DNA of 64,000 nucleotides from an uncultured Opitutales bacterium (GCA_943789375.1 CALSTX010000003.1:62001-126000), one strand, 5' to 3'. Counted from the stretch's first letter, positions 9,170-29,895 are shown. The notes: a model not told the origin generated them from the letters alone. Program-made: numbers and translations.

Positions 9170-10048
9170 TCACTTCACAGGTTTACCCTGCTTCCACATA
9201 CCTTTAAAAGTCACCAAGCCGTTTGAAGAAAAGGATGTACCCATTCCATCTTCCAAACCATATTTGAAGTTGCCAATGTAAGATGTTCCATTTGAGTTGG
9301 TCCAATGACCATAACCATGGGGGATGTGATTGCGCATTTTTCCCCTAAAAGTGGATCCATCTTGTAGGGTAACTGTAGAGGATTTTGATACTGATTTTTT
9401 TGGATGATTATATTCAAAAGTTGGTATTCTTAAGATTCTTTTTTTTAATTCATTCATTGTGTCAGGAATGTTTTGTGCCACTACTTGCGGTATCATCCTT
9501 TTGAGTCGTTCAAAGCTTTCTGTTGAGGCTTTATCAGGGCCTCTATCTGAAGATAATTTGTAGGCAGCTAAAGCTAGTAATATTTTACCGTCTTGTTCGT
9601 AGACTCGACCTAAATTAAGCAAGATTTGGTCACCCCCATAAGCTATGGCTTTAATATACCATTCTTCAGCTTTGGTTAAGTTGATAGATGTTCCAATTCC
9701 ATTTTTGTATACATTACCAAGGTATTGACAAGCTGTGATATTACCTTGATTACCTGCTTTCTTCATCCAGTACAAGGCATCTTGTCGTTTGTTGGGAGAG
9801 ACAACAGATAAGGAAAATCCAACAGACAATTGGGCATCAATGTCGCCCTGCCTTGCAAGTTCAATTTTCTCACTGTTTCCGTAAAGGGTGGCAACCAAAA
9901 GTTGCAATCCCCAAAGTAAACTTGATTTAGTCAGAGCTAAAGATACGACCGAAAATTCCTTTTTTATTGGTAACAGGTTTACCATTACTTTTCTTGGCTG
10001 AGCCAAATCTCCACAGTTCCAAGTTTTCATTTGTTGTGGCATCTCCAA
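9170..10048 (-). CDS. Sel1-like repeat / MORN repeat protein (true start probably downstream of 10048)
   Basis: Sel1-like DALYWMKKAGNQGNITACQYLGNVYKNGIG...; MORN-like DGSTFRGKMRNHIPHGYGHWTNSNGTSYIGNFKYGLEDGMGT. Confidence 0.75.
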   Translation of the reverse strand: MEMPQQMKTWNCGDLAQPRKVMVNLLPIKKEFSVVSLALTKSSLLWGLQLLVATLYGNSEKIELARQGDIDAQLSVGFSLSVVSPNKRQDALYWMKKAGNQGNITACQYLGNVYKNGIGTSINLTKAEEWYIKAIAYGGDQILLNLGRVYEQDGKILLALAAYKLSSDRGPDKASTESFERLKRMIPQVVAQNIPDTMNELKKRILRIPTFEYNHPKKSVSKSSTVTLQDGSTFRGKMRNHIPHGYGHWTNSNGTSYIGNFKYGLEDGMGTSFSSNGLVTFKGMWKQGKPVK

Positions 10049-10718
10049 TCAGGGCATCATACTTACCTTTCAATTTCAATTCTTGTATGTAAATAGCTAA
10101 CCCCATCTTTTTAAAAGTAGGTAAAGATGTTGGGTAAGAATTAACAAGCCGGCTCGATTTCAAAAGTAACATAATATCAATATCGTAAGCATCACCAAAG
10201 TAAGTTGGTTTTCCAAGAACGAGCACCATGCGGCCTCCAATAATTTCTTTAGTACCACCTTTAGCTGTAGTTATTGTACCTTTTCCTTCAAGTGGGATAA
10301 ATTTGAATCCACCATTTTTTGTTGCTTCTAGGATAATGGTGCCACGACCGTTAAAAGTTGCATTGGATTCTCTTGTTGAAAATTTAATGCTTTGTGCATG
10401 TTCAGTACAAAAAAGTAAGCTTCCAGAGTGCAGCCAGAAATCTGTATTAGAACGCCATGTTCCCATGCTGTCTCGTCCAAGCCTCCAGTAATTTTTGGGC
10501 GTTATTGATTCTAGTCTTCCTTGTACACCTGTAGCAATGAGAAGATTTTTTGTTAGACTAGTATTTACATCAATAAGGTAGGGATCAAATTTGTCTTTGT
10601 CGCTTAAATTAACTGCATCTATGCGGCCATATTTATAAGTAATTTTTGGTGATGATGCTGATAAAAAAAAAGCCGCTGTTGAAACAGCGGCAATTAATGA
10701 AATTTTAATGTAGATCAA
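9927..10718 (-). CDS. FecR-like domain protein with N-terminal signal peptide
   Basis: TTG start; MIYIKISLIAAVSTAAFFLSASS leader; VQGRLES...GTWRSNTDFWLHSGSLLFCTEHAQSIKFST resembles the FecR fold core. Confidence 0.6.
   Translation of the reverse strand: MIYIKISLIAAVSTAAFFLSASSPKITYKYGRIDAVNLSDKDKFDPYLIDVNTSLTKNLLIATGVQGRLESITPKNYWRLGRDSMGTWRSNTDFWLHSGSLLFCTEHAQSIKFSTRESNATFNGRGTIILEATKNGGFKFIPLEGKGTITTAKGGTKEIIGGRMVLVLGKPTYFGDAYDIDIMLLLKSSRLVNSYPTSLPTFKKMGLAIYIQELKLKGKYDALIGDATTNENLELWRFGSAKKSNGKPVTNKKGIFGRIFSSD
10663..10691 (-). terminator. Intrinsic terminator/attenuator-like element inside the FecR-like signal-peptide codons
   Basis: Minus strand GCCGCTGT-TTCA-ACAGCGGC followed by TTTTTTTTT. 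Confidence 0.7.
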
Positions 10719-10719
10719 T

Positions 10720-11736
10720 TTAGAAACTAGCTGTTAGGCTTAAGCCTGCACCCAAATCAAACTTCTTGAAATCGTACAGCGAATCGTAAGAATCTCCAGC
10801 TTCGTCATTACCATCAGAAACTCTTTTGGAATAATCAGAATTGAGAGAAAGTTCAAATGAATCACTGATAGGGTATTGGATAAGTACTCCGATATTCTGA
10901 AGAACATCGGTTCTGTCAAAATTGAAACCATTGTCATACTTTCTGTATGAAACTGAGTATGTTGGCGTGATAGTTAATGTTTCTAATGAGTAGATTATGG
11001 AATATCTAAGGGTGGCATCTATGTGATCAAGTTCGTCTTCTGTATGTGAGCTTGAGGTTGGGCCGTCTGCATCCTCAATATCGCCATAGTGAGAACCAAC
11101 TGAAGCATCTAATACACCAAGCAAATTATCTGACAAAGGGTAGGCTTTTGTTACACCAACACTAGGATAAAACTCCTTGTACTCCTCTGTGTCGCTTTCA
11201 ACACTACGGTCATTTGAGTACATTACTCCGGCTCGGAAGGCCCAACCACTCTCGTGTTGTAGCAGGAATAGTAAATATGCAGTTGTGGTGTTGTGATTTA
11301 GTACACTTAAGTCTGGTATTGCTTCATTAGAGTTTTTGTAGGTGTAATCTGTCATCGCCCATGCACCGCCGACAAAAGGAGTGAGTACAGATGAATCAAG
11401 ATCATAAACACCAAGCTTGGCCATACCATGAAATTTATTTACCCAAACAGCATCAGCTTGTTGGTCTAAAACACCTGGGGCACCAAGCGGATTTTGTTTG
11501 TAAGCTATATTACTGTCGTAGCCGAAGGAAGCAGAAAAACCAGATTTTTTGAGCAACAATGGTCGCTGAGCTCCTGTATCGGACGATTCAACATCTGAGC
11601 TGGTTACTTTACTGCTTTTTTGAGCAGATTCAGCAACTGGAGATGGTAGAGATCTACTGGTTGAATCGACACGAGACTGGGTTTGGCCGTATGTAACGAG
11701 AGCAGATAAAAGTAAAAGAGAAATATGAGTGTTCAT
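10720..11736 (-). CDS. Outer-membrane beta-barrel protein
   Basis: Signal-peptide-like N-term, alternating hydrophobic/aromatic strands (SFGYDSNIAY..., SVGSHYGDIED..., YSVSYRKYDNGFNF), terminal F. Confidence 0.75.
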   Translation of the reverse strand: MNTHISLLLLSALVTYGQTQSRVDSTSRSLPSPVAESAQKSSKVTSSDVESSDTGAQRPLLLKKSGFSASFGYDSNIAYKQNPLGAPGVLDQQADAVWVNKFHGMAKLGVYDLDSSVLTPFVGGAWAMTDYTYKNSNEAIPDLSVLNHNTTTAYLLFLLQHESGWAFRAGVMYSNDRSVESDTEEYKEFYPSVGVTKAYPLSDNLLGVLDASVGSHYGDIEDADGPTSSSHTEDELDHIDATLRYSIIYSLETLTITPTYSVSYRKYDNGFNFDRTDVLQNIGVLIQYPISDSFELSLNSDYSKRVSDGNDEAGDSYDSLYDFKKFDLGAGLSLTASF

Positions 11737-11776
11737 TACGATTGGTTTGTAATTATATTTTAAATAAATTGATTAA

Positions 11777-13480
11777 TTATTGGCCTCTGACCTTGATGAA
11801 AGGTGTACCATTAGGCAAAGTGGCGGCAGAGTTGATGTGCCCATCTACTCCGTTAAATTGATTACGAGTCAAGACATCATTGCTTATACCGAGATGCTTA
11901 ACATTGTGAAAATTAACTGCTCCACTTGTGATAGATTTACTATCTGAATTATTAATGGAAAGAGCACCATTTTGACTTCTGAGCATTATATCAGCCGTGG
12001 AAGGGAAGGAGGTATTTTTAATATGTATAGTTTTAGATTCCATGTATATATCATCGATTCTTCCAGAAAAATTCAACTGATCGATATTTATCAATTCATT
12101 TGCATAAAGGTAAACATTGTCTGGGTCAGAATTCGAACCGTTTGCAGTTCCAACGGTGAATGTCGATCCACCAGTTATGTTCATTGTACCTAAAGAGCCA
12201 ACGGCAAGATTTCCACCTGTTGAAATGCTTGTGTTAACAAGGTACATGCTATCGCTGCCTGTGTCGCCAGATCCAATTCCTAGATTGGATCCTGTGTACT
12301 CAATGTTGGTGTTTTCGATGAAAACATCATCTGCCGCACCCAGGACTAAAGCGTGATCTTCAACTGTGTTGGAGTTAGTAAACTTGATGTTTCCAGCAGA
12401 TTTTAAATCTTTTGCGGCCCCTATAACAAGCACTTTTCGGTCTGCAGTGGATGCAGCTTTTCCAAGTTCGTTACTCACATCAATAGTGGATTCGCTTCCT
12501 GTTTGACCAAGGGTTAGTGTAGAACCTGCCTTAAGCATAACATTCGATAAAGGAACATTGAGCACGCTTGATGGGGTGTCTTCAGTCGAGAATGATCTTG
12601 AACCCGTTAATGTTGAAAGAAATCCGAGATAGTCGCTTGTTGAATTTTGTACTAGTGATGATAGAGTAGAATCTCCTGTGTACGAGTAATTTGCCCCCAA
12701 GACATTACTGGCGAGGTTTTCTCCATTCGAACCTAACGCACCGTATGCAGAGAGTAAGCGGATGAATGCTGTATTGTAACCAGTTGCTGATAAACTAGCT
12801 ACCGAAATAGTTGATGCTGGCAATGTGGTTGTAAGGACCCTGTCAGTCAGAACTGTGGATGCTAATGTGAGGGCACTAGTAAATTGAGAGTCTTTAGAAT
12901 AAGTAGATGCGTATCTTGACAGGGCAAGCAACTCAGCGTCATTAATTAGCAGCAATGGGTCTGCAACTTGGTCAGCGTACTGTGCTTTGGCGGCGGCTAA
13001 GGTATCTTCCAGTGATTTCCCCTCGTGTTCCGGATCTCTGAGGAAATCAGCATAGAGTTCTGCATCGTCAAGAGAGTGGCCCTTCCTGAGTAAATCACCG
13101 TACTCTTTGGCATCATGAATGCCAATCCCGGTAACTAATAAATCGTGGTGCATTTTGAAATCTTTAATACTTCCACCGCTTTTAAGGGATTCGGTGTATT
13201 TATCTTTCAATGTATCAAGACCGCCATCCAAGGCTTTTAGTGATTCATGGGTGTACCCGAGCTTGTGAATTGCGATGTGTAATACTCGAAGCTTGTGATT
13301 AGCTTGTGCAGACTTTGGGGCTCCTTTGCTCGGTGCTGAAACAGAACCTGTTGAGGATGCAGCAGCTGCATCATCGCCCTCTTGACCGAATATGAGAGTG
13401 CTGGAGAGAACCAAAGATAGAGAAGTAAGTAGGTATTTGGAGAGTTTCATGGTAGGATTGTTTCTAAAGTATTTTCTCAA
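11777..13480 (-). CDS. Secreted/surface protein with N-terminal 16-aa helical repeats and C-terminal beta-helix-like repeats; likely start at M11 (13450)
   Basis: MKLSKYLLTSLSLVLSSTLIFGQ signal peptide; repeats GxSLxDAxxYxDxL; C-term NIKFTNSN.../VFIENTNIEYTGS.../MYLVNTSISTGGNL... Confidence 0.65.
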   Translation of the reverse strand: MRKYFRNNPTMKLSKYLLTSLSLVLSSTLIFGQEGDDAAAASSTGSVSAPSKGAPKSAQANHKLRVLHIAIHKLGYTHESLKALDGGLDTLKDKYTESLKSGGSIKDFKMHHDLLVTGIGIHDAKEYGDLLRKGHSLDDAELYADFLRDPEHEGKSLEDTLAAAKAQYADQVADPLLLINDAELLALSRYASTYSKDSQFTSALTLASTVLTDRVLTTTLPASTISVASLSATGYNTAFIRLLSAYGALGSNGENLASNVLGANYSYTGDSTLSSLVQNSTSDYLGFLSTLTGSRSFSTEDTPSSVLNVPLSNVMLKAGSTLTLGQTGSESTIDVSNELGKAASTADRKVLVIGAAKDLKSAGNIKFTNSNTVEDHALVLGAADDVFIENTNIEYTGSNLGIGSGDTGSDSMYLVNTSISTGGNLAVGSLGTMNITGGSTFTVGTANGSNSDPDNVYLYANELINIDQLNFSGRIDDIYMESKTIHIKNTSFPSTADIMLRSQNGALSINNSDSKSITSGAVNFHNVKHLGISNDVLTRNQFNGVDGHINSAATLPNGTPFIKVRGQ

Positions 13481-13569: not shown

Positions 13570-13656
13570 TGGTGCCGAGGGCGAGATTTGAACTCGCACA
13601 TCTTTGCAGATACTAGATTCTGAGTCTAGCGCGTCTACCAATTCCGCCACCCCGGC
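13570..13656 (-). tRNA. tRNA-Leu (CAG), CCA encoded
   Basis: Reverse complement GCCGGGGTGGCGGAATTGGTAGACGCGCTAGACTCAGAATCTAG...GTTCAAATC...; loop CTCAGAA; long variable arm. Confidence 0.95.
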
Positions 13657-13701: not shown

Positions 13702-14367
13702 TCAGTTGATTAATTTACCAATTGTGTTTTTCCGGCTACCATTTGCTAGTTTCCTCAAAAAAACATCTTGGTCTGGTGTATCTTCCTCGTCTAACAAGTC
13801 AACCGGATCAAATACATGTGTTACCCTTCTTGGCGAGTGAGAAAATATTTGATTAATCGGAGGCTCCTTTTTTGCACTCAAAATATAGGTTTCCATTGGA
13901 TAGCGCTTTGTTTTGTACTTTTCAATAAGCTGTGAAACTAGTGAGCCATTTGTATTGGTTCGATTGGAAAAACAGATGGCATCAGAAAAATGGGCTACCC
14001 CATCGAACCAGGCATTGAAATTATTCGATCCAATGAGATGAGAGTCAATAAGGGATATTACCCTGCAGAGCTTGAGTTGTGGGTTTTCATTCAACAATGC
14101 AATGCTGGCTTCGATTTGGTCAGCAAGATCAAATTCATTGCAAAGAAAGAGAAACCATTCATTTGCTGCTAATTGGCTGGGGTTTTCAATTTGAATTTCA
14201 TCATCTTGCATGAACCAAGTGAGAAAAGGAAGTTTGGATGTCGGGGTACTCTCGGGAAACAGGCAAAGTGAGCTTTGTTTTCCCTGATCTTTGTTGAGAA
14301 TCAAGGAAAGTACCTTCTCGTCACCAGAGTTTGGAGTTCTGATAATTAAATATAAATCGCCTTCCAT
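13702..14367 (-). CDS. Conserved hypothetical protein (weak resemblance to CobW-like GTPase core without a P-loop)
   Basis: 221 aa; LKLCRVISLIDSHLIG..NAWFDGVAHFSDAICFSNRT; no GxxxxGK(S/T). Confidence 0.5.
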   Translation of the reverse strand: MEGDLYLIIRTPNSGDEKVLSLILNKDQGKQSSLCLFPESTPTSKLPFLTWFMQDDEIQIENPSQLAANEWFLFLCNEFDLADQIEASIALLNENPQLKLCRVISLIDSHLIGSNNFNAWFDGVAHFSDAICFSNRTNTNGSLVSQLIEKYKTKRYPMETYILSAKKEPPINQIFSHSPRRVTHVFDPVDLLDEEDTPDQDVFLRKLANGSRKNTIGKLIN

Positions 14368-14375
14368 GTTGATGG

Positions 14376-15476
14376 TTACAAATCGTTAAAGGATTCGCAC
14401 TGAGCTACATGCCGCATTTTGTGGTCGATCAGAACAAGGGCAGTCATTGCCTCAACGATGGGCACGGCTCGTGGTAATACGCAGGGGTCATGCCTGCCTC
14501 GGCCCATTAGTTCGGTTTCATTTCCTTGGTTATCTACTGTTTTTTGAATCTGCAGTACAGTGGCAGTTGGTTTAAATGCCACCCTAAAGAAAAGTTCCTC
14601 GCCATTGGTTATCCCTCCCTGAACCCCTCCGGAGTTATTAGTTTTCGTGGAAACTTGACCATCTCGACTTTCAAATAAGTCGTTGTGCTCGGAGCCTTTG
14701 AGCAGAGTTCCTTCAAACCCGCTGCCTATTTCAAAGGCTTTGGTGGCGGGCAGAGACAGCATTGCTTTGGCTAAATCTGCTTCGATCCGGTCAAAAACAG
14801 GTGCACCTAAGCCAACGGGCAAACCATTTACTCTGCACGAGATTGAACCGCCGACTGAATCCCCTGCTTTTTTTACTTCCAATATACGGTCTTCCATTAA
14901 CTTGGCAGTTTGAGGGTGAGGGCATCGGGTAGGGGAAGCTTCTACCTCATCAAGAGTGGGTGGATTCTCAGTATTTGGGCATTGAATATCATGAATTCTT
15001 TCCACATAGGTGGATATGGAAACATTCATGGTTGTTAGAAGTTTTTGAGCAATGGCTCCTGCGGCAACCCTGGCTATCGTTTCTCTGGCAGATGAACGGC
15101 CTCCTCCTTCGTGATTGCGGATCCCAAATTTGGATTGATAAGTGAAATCGGCATGGGAGGGGCGAAATTTTTCTTTCATTTCGTCATAAGCTTGAGGGCG
15201 GGCATCTTTGTTCCTGACAAGCATGGCGATAGGAGTGCCTAAGGTTTTTCCTTCAAAGACTCCCGATAAAATTTCAACTTGATCAGCTTCGTCTCGTGGA
15301 GTTGTAAGTTTGCTTTGCCCAGGTCTACGACGTTCCAGGAATGGTTGGATATCTGACTCGGAAAGGGGGAGACGCGGAGGGCAGCCATCGACTACGACTC
15401 CGATACCGCCACCATGGCTTTCTCCCCAGGAAGATATTTTAAACAAATTTCCAAACAAATTTCCCATACACTCCAT
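14376..15476 (-). CDS. aroC: Chorismate synthase
   Basis: [85 protein letters not shown]. Confidence 0.97.
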
Positions 15477-26160: not shown

Positions 26161-29100
26161 ATGAAATTTAGCAAAGAATCTAAGAATACTTTTTTATGTT
26201 TGCTCATCATCCCTTTGGTTTGGGTTGTCCTAAACCATTTTGGTTATTTGGATTTTTTGAAAACGAAGTCACTCGATTGGAGACTTCAATTTCGGGGCGA
26301 AATTCAGCAGGAAATTGCCAGTGAAGAAGGAGGCATGGTTCAAGTGGAAGATAATAAATCTCTTCCCCGAATTCCTAAGGTGACCTATGTGAATTTTGAT
26401 GCGTCTACTCTCGCAATGGATGGCGTGGGGGAAAGACCATGGGACCGGGCATTCTTTCGCGATACCGCTCTCGCTTTGATTGAGCGGGGGAATGCGCGAG
26501 TCTTGGGTTTCGACTTTGGCTTTACTCCGAAAAGTATGTCGAAAATGGTTCCCCGTGAAAATTCTTATCGTAGTGATGATGCGATTGGGGAACTTGTGAA
26601 GAAATACCCTGACCGGGTTGTACTTGGTTGTCTTTATTCAGGGGTTCCTACCCAATTTGTTAAGCCGACGGGGGTGAGTGCATTCCCGCCTTTTTTCTAT
26701 GATGGATTTTCTTTAAAAGAATCCGTGAGGTCCGAAAAATACCATTACCCTGAGTCTCCAACTTATCCCTTACTGAGTTATCAAAATGGAAAATACTTGG
26801 GTAGGGTTGGTTCTTTTACCGTGCCCCCGTTCCGTGCGGTTGATGAGATCCCAAGATGGGTGCCTTTATGGTTTCCTTCCATGGGCAAAGCTCATGCGTA
26901 CAACTTACTTGGAGGCAAACAAAGTAAGTTAGATTTTGAATTACCTCAAGATAACCAAGCTCGCATCAATGAGTTGGAGATTAAGCGCCAAAAGCTAATC
27001 ACTGCGAAAGAGCAAAAAGTAACAGAAATTACTAAAGCTTCTGAGCAGATCGCTAAGCTTCAAGTGAATAAAGAAAAAATAGATTCTGTGGTTGCTGAGT
27101 TAGAAGACCAGAAAAATACCGCTAAGGAGTTGAAGAAACAAATTATAACATTTCAAAGCACTCTTCAGGCAAACCAATCATTAGCCACAGTTATTACACC
27201 TCAAATTAATCAAAGAACGCAAAAGCTGAATGGAATCCTTGTCGTTTATCTGTCAGATTTAAACAGGAGCCTCGGGTTATCACCCAATGAAACCAGCAAA
27301 GCCGAAAGTCGTATTGACCAGTTGGATCAAGAAATTTTGAATTTCCAGTCTACTTTGTCTGCAAATCCAGCAATTGCAGCGATTATCAAGCCTCAACTTG
27401 AAAAAAGAATATCAGAAAAAGAAGCACTTGCCCAAACACTCGCAGCCTCTTCGGCTATTTCCGATATTAACTTAAATAATCAACAACAGTCCAAAGCATT
27501 GGGTAATCTGGAAACACATTTGGCTGAAAAAAATGAAGAGTCTGCATCCATATCCTCTGGCTTGGCAAAGCGAGCCGGTGCTCTAGTCGAAATCAGGACA
27601 GGAATTGATGACCTCAATCAAAAGGTATCAAGGGTACAACGTGATCTTTTAAGGCTGAAAGGGAAAGCGGATACTGAGCTTATTGAGAGCAACCAAACCT
27701 TGCGCTTAGTTTACAAGGCAAGCGATGATGAAAAAGAAGCCAAGCTTGTGGACTCTCTCCCCAATGAAGTTCCCCTGCGGAGAGACCGAAATGTGTATGC
27801 TCTCGGAGTTGAGAGCCTACTTGCTTATTACGGCCTTGATGAAAAATCGGTCACCATTGATCAAGATGGCACCTTTCAGATCCGATCACTGGCTGATGAT
27901 ATTCTTGTCAGTTGTAAAATGGAGGAAGGCCAGTTCTTGGAAGTGAATTGGTTTACTCAATGGACTGAAAATTTGGAAGAGAGAAAAATGATGAAAGATG
28001 CCAAGAAGGCTTACAGTGATGGTGATTTTCAAGCTTACACTCGTTTAGTGCCTTCTATTCTTGAGAAATTTTTGAACAGGGTAGATGGAGTTTCAGTTAC
28101 GAATTCCACGGGAATTATCGGAGCCCTTAAAGATTTAGAGCTAGAATCAAGTCTTATTGAAATGGCCGAAAATTTATTGGGGCAAAGACCAGACAATTCA
28201 AATATCCCAGGCTTTGATGATCTTACAAAAGTGGTTGAAGCCATCGCTTATTATTTTATTCCCCCGAGTTTACAGTCGAAGACAAACCCAATGTGCGGGA
28301 TGCGTGATGTTTTACAAAATGCTAAATTTCAGGATCAAGTAACCGCTAAAATTAAAGAACTTGAAAATAAAATAGATAGCCTTCAAGGGCCAAGTGTTAT
28401 GGGGAAAATCCTTACTGGATTGGAGGCTGACCCAGGAAATGAATCTATACTTTTGATGAAAAAACAAGTCGATGAAGCCATTGAAATAAACACTCAAAAC
28501 TGGGATGAACAAGAACAGGAACTTCAACGCATCAATTCGTTTTTCGCTTGTTTTAAAGATTCTATTGTACTCCTCGGACCTGAGGAGAAAACCTTCCAGG
28601 ACCTTGCTCCCACACCTTTAGATAAAGCCTCAGTCCCCAAAGTGAGTGTTCATGGGAATTTGATTAAAACGATGACCACAGGTAAGTATATCACCCGTCC
28701 TCATAAATATGTGGATCATGTAGCCACAGTCCTGGTTTGCCTGGTGATGGGACTTTTATCAGTGTATCAGGGAAATAGGGCGAGCTTGGTACAGGCAGCG
28801 GGAATTTTGATATTGGTGGGCTTTGTGGTATTTGGGTTATTCACTTTTTCAAATACTCATTTTCTATTACCAATCACAACGCCTGCATGTGCAGGTCTGA
28901 GTACTTCTTTCATAGGGTTAGCCGCAATGGTTGTGATTGAGCAAAAAGCAAAAGGGAAATTAAAAGGTATGTTTGGGAGTTATGTTTCTTCGGACTTAGT
29001 CGAGCAGATGGTTGATTCTGGGGAAGAACCGAGCCTTGGGGGAGAAGAGACCGCAATCACTGCTTTTTTCAGCGATGTACAGGCATTCTCAAGCTTTTCT

Positions 29101-29895
29101 GAGCTATTAACTCCTACGGGTCTTGTTGACTTAATGAACGAATACTTGACCGCAATGACAAATATTCTGCAGGAAGAGCGCGGGACTTTGGATAAATATA
29201 TTGGGGATGCAATTGTGGCCATGTATGGAGCCCCTATTCCGATGCAAGATCATGCTTATCAATCTGTAAGAACGGCTATCTTGATGCAGCAGAAACAAAT
29301 TGAATTACGTGATAAATGGAAGCTTGAAGCCGACAAATGGGGGAAATGTCATGGTTTGGTTTCTCAAATGCAAACACGGATTGGGTGTAATACTGGAACC
29401 GCGACCGTTGGAAATATGGGAGCCTTGGATCGGTTCAATTATACGATGATGGGTGATATGGTTAATTTAGCTGCCCGTTGCGAAAGTGGGGCCAAAGCAT
29501 ACGGGGCTTATATCATGATTACCGAGGAAACAAAATTTGCATCCGAGAGCACCAAAGATGATATTGCTTTCCGTTACTTGGACAAAATTGTTGTAAAGGG
29601 CCGTTCTCAGCCTGTTGCTATGTATGAACCAACGGGATTTATGTCTGAGTTGACTCAAGAAACTCAAGATTGCTTGGATTGCTTTCGTCAGGGAATTGAT
29701 AAATACCTCCTCCAGGATTGGGATGGGGCGTTAAATTTGTTTGAGAAAGCCAAAGAAATGGAGCCAAACAAACCTGGGGTGACACCTGGAGTGAAGGACA
29801 ACCCCTCTATGATTTTGATTGATCGTTGTAAGGTAATGAAAGAGAACCCACCTGAGGCGGACTGGGATGGAGTTTATGTAATGACAACCAAGTAG
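26161..29895 (+). CDS. CHASE2-type sensor class III adenylate/guanylate cyclase with long coiled-coil insertion
   Basis: CHASE2-like KSLDWRLQFRG..VTYVNFDASTL..RPWDRAFFRDTALALIERGNARVLGFDFGF; cyclase FFSDVQAFSSFSE, LDKYIGDAIVAMYGAP, NYTMMGDMVNLAARCE. Confidence 0.88.
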   Translation: MKFSKESKNTFLCLLIIPLVWVVLNHFGYLDFLKTKSLDWRLQFRGEIQQEIASEEGGMVQVEDNKSLPRIPKVTYVNFDASTLAMDGVGERPWDRAFFRDTALALIERGNARVLGFDFGFTPKSMSKMVPRENSYRSDDAIGELVKKYPDRVVLGCLYSGVPTQFVKPTGVSAFPPFFYDGFSLKESVRSEKYHYPESPTYPLLSYQNGKYLGRVGSFTVPPFRAVDEIPRWVPLWFPSMGKAHAYNLLGGKQSKLDFELPQDNQARINELEIKRQKLITAKEQKVTEITKASEQIAKLQVNKEKIDSVVAELEDQKNTAKELKKQIITFQSTLQANQSLATVITPQINQRTQKLNGILVVYLSDLNRSLGLSPNETSKAESRIDQLDQEILNFQSTLSANPAIAAIIKPQLEKRISEKEALAQTLAASSAISDINLNNQQQSKALGNLETHLAEKNEESASISSGLAKRAGALVEIRTGIDDLNQKVSRVQRDLLRLKGKADTELIESNQTLRLVYKASDDEKEAKLVDSLPNEVPLRRDRNVYALGVESLLAYYGLDEKSVTIDQDGTFQIRSLADDILVSCKMEEGQFLEVNWFTQWTENLEERKMMKDAKKAYSDGDFQAYTRLVPSILEKFLNRVDGVSVTNSTGIIGALKDLELESSLIEMAENLLGQRPDNSNIPGFDDLTKVVEAIAYYFIPPSLQSKTNPMCGMRDVLQNAKFQDQVTAKIKELENKIDSLQGPSVMGKILTGLEADPGNESILLMKKQVDEAIEINTQNWDEQEQELQRINSFFACFKDSIVLLGPEEKTFQDLAPTPLDKASVPKVSVHGNLIKTMTTGKYITRPHKYVDHVATVLVCLVMGLLSVYQGNRASLVQAAGILILVGFVVFGLFTFSNTHFLLPITTPACAGLSTSFIGLAAMVVIEQKAKGKLKGMFGSYVSSDLVEQMVDSGEEPSLGGEETAITAFFSDVQAFSSFSELLTPTGLVDLMNEYLTAMTNILQEERGTLDKYIGDAIVAMYGAPIPMQDHAYQSVRTAILMQQKQIELRDKWKLEADKWGKCHGLVSQMQTRIGCNTGTATVGNMGALDRFNYTMMGDMVNLAARCESGAKAYGAYIMITEETKFASESTKDDIAFRYLDKIVVKGRSQPVAMYEPTGFMSELTQETQDCLDCFRQGIDKYLLQDWDGALNLFEKAKEMEPNKPGVTPGVKDNPSMILIDRCKVMKENPPEADWDGVYVMTTK

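Follow-up and report, generated by a model that had tools for sequence, protein, structure and literature searches.

A conserved FecR-type envelope module of Opitutales with a terminator-like hairpin inside the signal-peptide code of one of its genes

The locus at positions 9170–13480 of a 64,000-nucleotide stretch of DNA from an uncultured Opitutales bacterium (hereafter, the window) raises the question of what system its four consecutive minus-strand genes encode, and how the genes at its 3′ end are expressed. A reading made from the sequence alone (hereafter, the sequence-only reading) had proposed a four-gene envelope module comprising a repeat or beta-helix-like protein, an outer-membrane barrel, a FecR-like protein, and a Sel1/MORN protein, here designated REP, OMP, FEC, and SEL. 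Our analysis upholds the envelope reading and all four gene labels. The quartet of open reading frames (ORFs) is borne out, with a 40-nt gap between REP and OMP (11737–11776), a 1-nt gap between OMP and FEC (10719), and overlap of FEC and SEL, and the four genes form an operon-like unit. Of the start sites that had been assigned, the TTG of FEC (10718) stands, while the TTG of REP (13480) and the TTG of SEL (10048) are replaced: the likeliest start of REP is ATG 13450 (MKLSKYLLTSLSLVLSSTLIFGQ...), in agreement with the closest relative, and the likeliest start of SEL is ATG 9985, which yields about 271 aa. The operon has tRNA-Leu(CAG) (13570–13656, minus strand) directly 5′ and convergent 2-oxoacid ferredoxin oxidoreductase genes 3′. 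Further upstream are two synteny markers: aroC (chorismate synthase; 14376–15476, minus strand), which marks orthologous cassettes, and, between aroC and the operon, the conserved, function-unassigned gene g5 (13702–14367, minus strand), which has no Pfam or NCBIfam match. In most relatives, g5 is kept between aroC and the cassette. All sequences are metagenome assemblies (2.73 Mb for the source genome), and signal peptides were called by eye.

REP (11777–13450, minus strand) is a predicted secreted protein of 557 aa with a signal peptide, a stalk, and a conserved C-terminal part. In particular, the stalk (approximately residues 25–170) is very variable among relatives, while the C-terminal part of approximately 380 aa is conserved and has a repeating short-strand, beta-solenoid-like pattern; the structural model contains low-confidence helices followed by regular short strands with pLDDT of about 80–95. 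Relatives have the signal peptide and the C-terminal part in common and have a length-variable, often repetitive middle. No Pfam or NCBIfam family scores above cut-off for REP, and a fold search against solved structures returned no significant match. In one relative, REP is split over two frames (L045:11351-13986), and OMP and FEC are intact there.

OMP (10720–11736, minus strand) is a predicted outer-membrane beta-barrel of 338 aa with an SDxGAQRP-type motif N-terminal to the barrel and Phe as its last residue. Its relatives keep the D-x-G-x-Q motif ahead of the barrel and the terminal Phe; specifically, G55, Q57, and F338 are invariant and D53 is near-invariant. A weak match to OMP_b-brl_2 is its sole profile label, profile searches that included the sequences of solved structures identified no known secretion-pore features, and a search of solved-structure sequences with the OMP and FEC profiles returned nothing significant. 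An autotransporter or two-partner secretion system was considered and rejected: REP has no Pfam match or significant fold, and OMP has a weak, general-barrel match. SEL (9170–9985, minus strand) is a predicted exported protein that exceeds the Pfam cut-offs for Sel1 repeats (35.0 bits versus 30.7) and MORN repeats (22.9 versus 22.5).

FEC (9927–10718, minus strand) is a predicted exported protein of 263 aa that starts with the TTG located 1 nt past the OMP stop. It falls below the gathering cut-off of Pfam FecR (PF04773) and has no other Pfam or NCBIfam family above cut-off, and the best Pfam FecR E-value among 18 FEC members is 0.0069. The FecR-like label nevertheless gains support from fold prediction and from agreement between profiles. 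The AF2 model of FEC has a core with pLDDT above 90, and its best Foldseek matches among solved structures are the FecR-family anti-sigma factors 4m0h and 4m0n and PupR 6ovk, with probability 1.00 and a moderate E-value of about 2e-3. Alignment of FEC by hhalign with the FecR domains of REP paralogs gives a pairwise E-value of 6e-6 and a probability of 85%, and the region matched by the FEC profile coincides with the region matched by Pfam FecR (36–49 bits) at five loci outside the window's family (L096, L098, L101, L102, and L107). On the basis of the model, FEC thus has a predicted FecR/PupR-type periplasmic fold. Only a signal peptide precedes this domain; no anti-sigma domain and no transmembrane helix were found. 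Consistent with the statement that neither a sigma factor nor a TonB plug is visible, neither was found among the cassette proteins, and OMP is small and plugless. Cell-surface signalling of the FecI-FecR-FecA type is rejected on this account, since the cassette contains no ECF sigma factor, no TonB-dependent receptor, and no anti-sigma or transmembrane part.

The order REP-OMP-FEC is conserved far beyond chance. A profile scan of 273 Opitutales genomes identified the REP end in 51, FEC in 55, and OMP in 59; for 68 of the 113 REP-end matches, OMP and then FEC come next on the same strand, and these triples occur in 34 of the 273 genomes, of which 32 belong to the window's family and 2 to another family. 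Across the phylum, as sampled by 289 genomes, the REP end is confined to the window's order, Opitutales. The relatives that carry names are uncultivated marine Opitutales/Verrucomicrobia; 'Opitutales bacterium isolate cluster3_bin.19' is the closest of them, with 98% identity in the REP end. Paralogous cassettes, for which the sequence-only reading had proposed a search, are also present: the home genome carries complete triples on contigs C3 (the window), C6, and C4; in addition, C4 has a FEC gene that follows one for a giant surface protein, and C2 has a REP-end gene accompanied by part of an OMP. The core that recurs is thus REP-OMP-FEC, and of the proposed four-gene cassette the Sel1/MORN gene drops out as a locus-specific accessory. 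The REP paralogs on C6 and C4 have a true FecR domain near the N-terminus. A TIR-domain and TPR protein (ThsB_TIR/TIR_2; L037:5632-7944) is located behind the C6 cassette, and such a protein is also located beside the cassette in another genome (G026, L054). A fourth triple, with an OMP broken by stops and frameshifts, is present on contig C8 of the assembly (L036, G000:C8:1-12000). C8 is probably foreign, and is not counted as a paralog, because a second aroC (79.5% identity), dnaX, and a second CHASE2 cyclase are present on it, because a portion shares 92% identity with genome G008, and because assembly contamination is 2.8%.

Inside FEC is an intrinsic-terminator-like element (10663–10691, minus strand) that the sequence-only reading had not mentioned. 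The element starts 28 nt past the OMP stop and, from 10691 to 10663, reads 5′-GCCGCTGT TTCA ACAGCGGC TTTTTTTTT-3′, forming a perfect 8-pair stem (6 GC pairs), a 4-nt loop, and an immediate T9 tract. It has the sequence features of an intrinsic (Rho-independent) terminator: a GC-rich stem of at least 5 pairs, a short loop, and an immediate U-tract. The hairpin has a predicted folding energy of −14.8 kcal/mol (z −3.9), and its bases, read in frame, encode AAVSTAAFFL, the hydrophobic core of the FEC signal peptide. The 64-kb window contains two other sites of equal strength, and its gene ends carry almost no strong intrinsic-terminator-like sites, which suggests that termination in this organism occurs mainly by other means and weighs against reading the element as a terminator.

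An equivalent element is present in the FEC signal-peptide region of 19 distinct OMP-FEC junctions, including those of genus g3, where the stem is different. Stems of GCCGCTG, GCTCCC, and CGGCGAGGG type occur, and individual pairs change in both arms: counting the outermost pair as 0, pair 0 is G-C, C-G, A-T, or T-A; pair 4 is G-C, A-T, or T-A; pair 5 is C-G, T-G, or T-A; and pair 6 is T-A, A-T, or C-G. The arms pair at 97.5%, with several double changes, a value reached in 0 of 5000 re-dealings, a procedure that ignores the relatedness of the sequences. Strong sites are found at 11 of 297 ORF starts, every one the start of a FEC gene, and an equally high score is attained by 3 of 2802 segments from the interior of coding sequences. 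Neither the paralogous cassettes on C6 and C4 nor the corresponding locus of genus g4 has the hairpin, which would thus be dispensable for some cassettes. We conclude that the hairpin appears to be kept by selection; together with the conservation of the module and the FecR fold, this is among our strongest claims.

The recurrence of the hairpin, the compensatory changes in its arms, and its restriction to FEC starts make FEC look throttled by an intrinsic terminator, and the hairpin likely stops transcription. Three other accounts of the element were weighed. Its position immediately 3′ of OMP, in a window where other gene ends have few terminator-like sites, would suit an mRNA 3′-end stabiliser or processing site protecting the REP-OMP mRNA; a U-tract straight after the stem is, however, the signature of intrinsic termination, and hairpin-bearing junctions retain the tract in exactly that position, so that a stabiliser is unlikely. 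The U-rich run could also be a slippage (phase-variation) tract that toggles the FEC signal peptide, with the hairpin incidental, as the T8–T9 runs found where several members encode the signal peptide might suggest. Several relatives with interrupted runs (TTTTTGTTT) nonetheless retain the hairpin, and the arms covary. Slippage as the sole reason for the U-run was rejected on these grounds, and we rate this account the least probable of those considered. It is also very unlikely that selection for an Ala/Phe/Leu-rich signal peptide produced the hairpin incidentally. Synonymous versions of the leaders do give some weaker terminator in about 10–27% of draws, but, for each of about 16 relatives, only 0–8 of 500 draws attain the observed score, stems of unlike sequence recur, and strong sites at ORF starts are confined to FEC genes.

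The preferred reading of the element, towards which we lean slightly, is that a single sequence both stops transcription of REP-OMP and codes for the FEC export signal, with FEC made only from read-through transcripts. The start of FEC bears on this reading. The TTG at the OMP stop recurs as the only usable start in nearly all leaders that have the hairpin; the exceptions are L049, which has no start in the stretch read, L052, which has an ATG, and L055, in which the sole start is a TTG inside the hairpin. A review (PMC7858274, citing Li et al. 2015) states that terminators located within the first 100 nt of an ORF end transcription at near 100% and that coupled ribosomes antiterminate; FEC output would therefore depend on re-initiation at the TTG. 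A related locus carries an ordinary strong terminator (AGCCCCCGTTTACCGGGGGCT + T6; L106:13816 onward) directly behind OMP, and has no FEC gene there. A pre-existing operon-end terminator of this kind may have been recruited as the core of the signal peptide. Premature, translation-sensitive intrinsic termination near a start codon is likewise a feature of the ORF-proximal terminators and attenuators found by 3′-end mapping in E. coli (PMC7815308) and reviewed elsewhere (PMC7858274); the present case differs in that the hairpin and U-tract encode the signal-peptide core of the next gene and are kept across genera. The literature searched, which covers few subscription journals, yielded no description of a terminator that encodes a signal peptide.

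The proposal that the cassette is self-contained is not supported: elsewhere, FecR and the REP-type end form one polypeptide beside a CHASE2 cyclase, and the window itself encodes such a cyclase. This protein, a CHASE2-domain class III nucleotide cyclase of 1244 aa (26161–29895, plus strand), is located outside the operon and is a candidate partner by homology. It scores 74 bits for PF00211 and 64 bits for CHASE2 and, as read by eye, keeps the two metal aspartates and the Lys, Asp, Asn, and Arg expected of an adenylate cyclase. Its CHASE2 domain is split by a coiled-coil-like insertion of roughly 500 residues, and similar proteins of 1050–1330 aa are present in the family. With the C8 copy excluded, it is the single cyclase of its kind in the genome's own population; most members of the window's family have one per genome, and the home genome encodes three cyclic-nucleotide-binding proteins. 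In the window's family, the cyclase is located 12.7 kb from the cassette, on the opposite strand. This constant distance may reflect general synteny only and is not taken here as functional evidence, because the whole region is syntenic.

Outside the window's family, the FEC and REP-end profiles match one ORF, and this fused FecR/REP-end ORF has OMP next to it at several loci (L096, L098, L101, L102, and L107). Genes with CHASE2 and Guanylate_cyc domains are neighbours at L096, L098, L099, L100, and L104–L109; among these, L104–L106 are cyclase-linked with split parts, and L109 has the cyclase and FEC without a REP end. An apparent fusion at L101 (L101:3049-7068) is a 1339-aa open frame that joins CHASE2, cyclase, FecR, and a REP-type end; this four-part fusion, if real, would be topologically odd. 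The fused, cyclase-linked form would be older than the split form, because its spread is wider.

These arrangements bear on a further alternative, in which the locus is a structural surface module, with REP as an adhesin or stalk anchored or exported by OMP and FEC as a periplasmic retention or assembly factor. We regard this as possible, if doubtful. In its favour, REP stalk length varies such that REP ranges from 467 to about 1215 aa across relatives at one and the same aroC locus, with the C-terminal part conserved; FEC also matches part of the cell-surface anchoring domain 5ix9 (probability 1.00, TM 0.69 to target); and some orphan FEC genes come after giant multi-domain surface proteins. 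The adjacency of the FecR-type domain to a CHASE2 cyclase in several families argues against it, as does the lack of known secretion-pore features in OMP.

Our best reading is instead that the locus belongs, as a variant, with the known CHASE2-cyclase/FecR/barrel cAMP modules. FecR/CHASE2 modules are already known in Burkholderia (PMC5192318) and Campylobacterota (PMC9239204); in the literature searched, which covers few subscription journals, they were found in other phyla and none was found in Verrucomicrobia. Clusters of Campylobacterota encode a CHASE2 adenylate cyclase, a FecR-domain outer-membrane protein, a TPR protein, and a phosphodiesterase (PMC9239204). The window differs from these in encoding FecR domain, barrel, and beta-solenoid-like protein as separate products, in having REP as an additional conserved component, and in its cyclase, which in the window's family is not linked to the module; no phosphodiesterase was seen here. 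In the Sinorhizobium meliloti NsrA - CyaK/CyaD1/CyaD2 - Clr system, an outer-membrane barrel protein, NsrA, is required for signal perception by CHASE2 cyclases (PMC7529298, PMC13001267); unlike the 338-aa OMP, NsrA is one polypeptide of about 1200 aa whose barrel occupies 600–1200. The Burkholderia BiofilmReg operon likewise places a FecR-domain exported protein beside a CHASE2 sensor, and differs in that the sensor is a histidine kinase, FecR is joined to LysM, and there is no barrel or beta-solenoid (PMC5192318). The FecA-FecR-FecI and PupB-PupR systems have the periplasmic FecR/PupR fold in common with FEC; unlike them, the present locus has no ECF sigma factor, FEC has no anti-sigma or transmembrane part, and OMP lacks both a TonB plug and a signalling domain. 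Possible signalling through the CHASE2 cyclase is suggested by homology, by gene adjacency in other families, and by the parallels from Campylobacterota, S. meliloti, and Burkholderia.

We therefore propose, with our judgement evenly divided on the whole, that REP-OMP-FEC is a split, family-specific FecR/beta-solenoid/barrel module with CHASE2-cyclase signalling and terminator-throttled FEC; its termination, stoichiometry, and cAMP signalling are what we infer from the genes. Abundant REP and OMP would assemble at the outer membrane or surface and there sense an external or envelope state. FEC would be a scarce, FecR-type periplasmic relay of the sensed state to the periplasmic CHASE2 domain of the cyclase, and would thereby alter its cyclic-nucleotide output. 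Most transcription would end at the hairpin, past REP-OMP, and FEC and SEL would arise solely from read-through by RNA polymerase. Read-through would be aided by a ribosome that, having completed OMP, starts again at the neighbouring TTG and occupies the hairpin. Translated, the terminator sequence would also supply the Ala/Phe/Leu-rich core of the signal peptide of FEC.

Annotation places many FecR-domain and CHASE2 proteins outside the iron-signalling paradigm, with, to our knowledge, no mechanism described for them. This lineage, whose parts are variously fused, split, cyclase-linked, or apart, offers natural experiments for pairing FecR and CHASE2 proteins. A terminator that doubles as signal-peptide code would be a concrete, easily testable case of overlapping regulatory and protein code. 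Because a GC-rich hairpin followed by a U-tract translates into an Ala/Phe/Leu-rich segment, the case suggests a route by which new exported proteins may arise behind the end of an operon.
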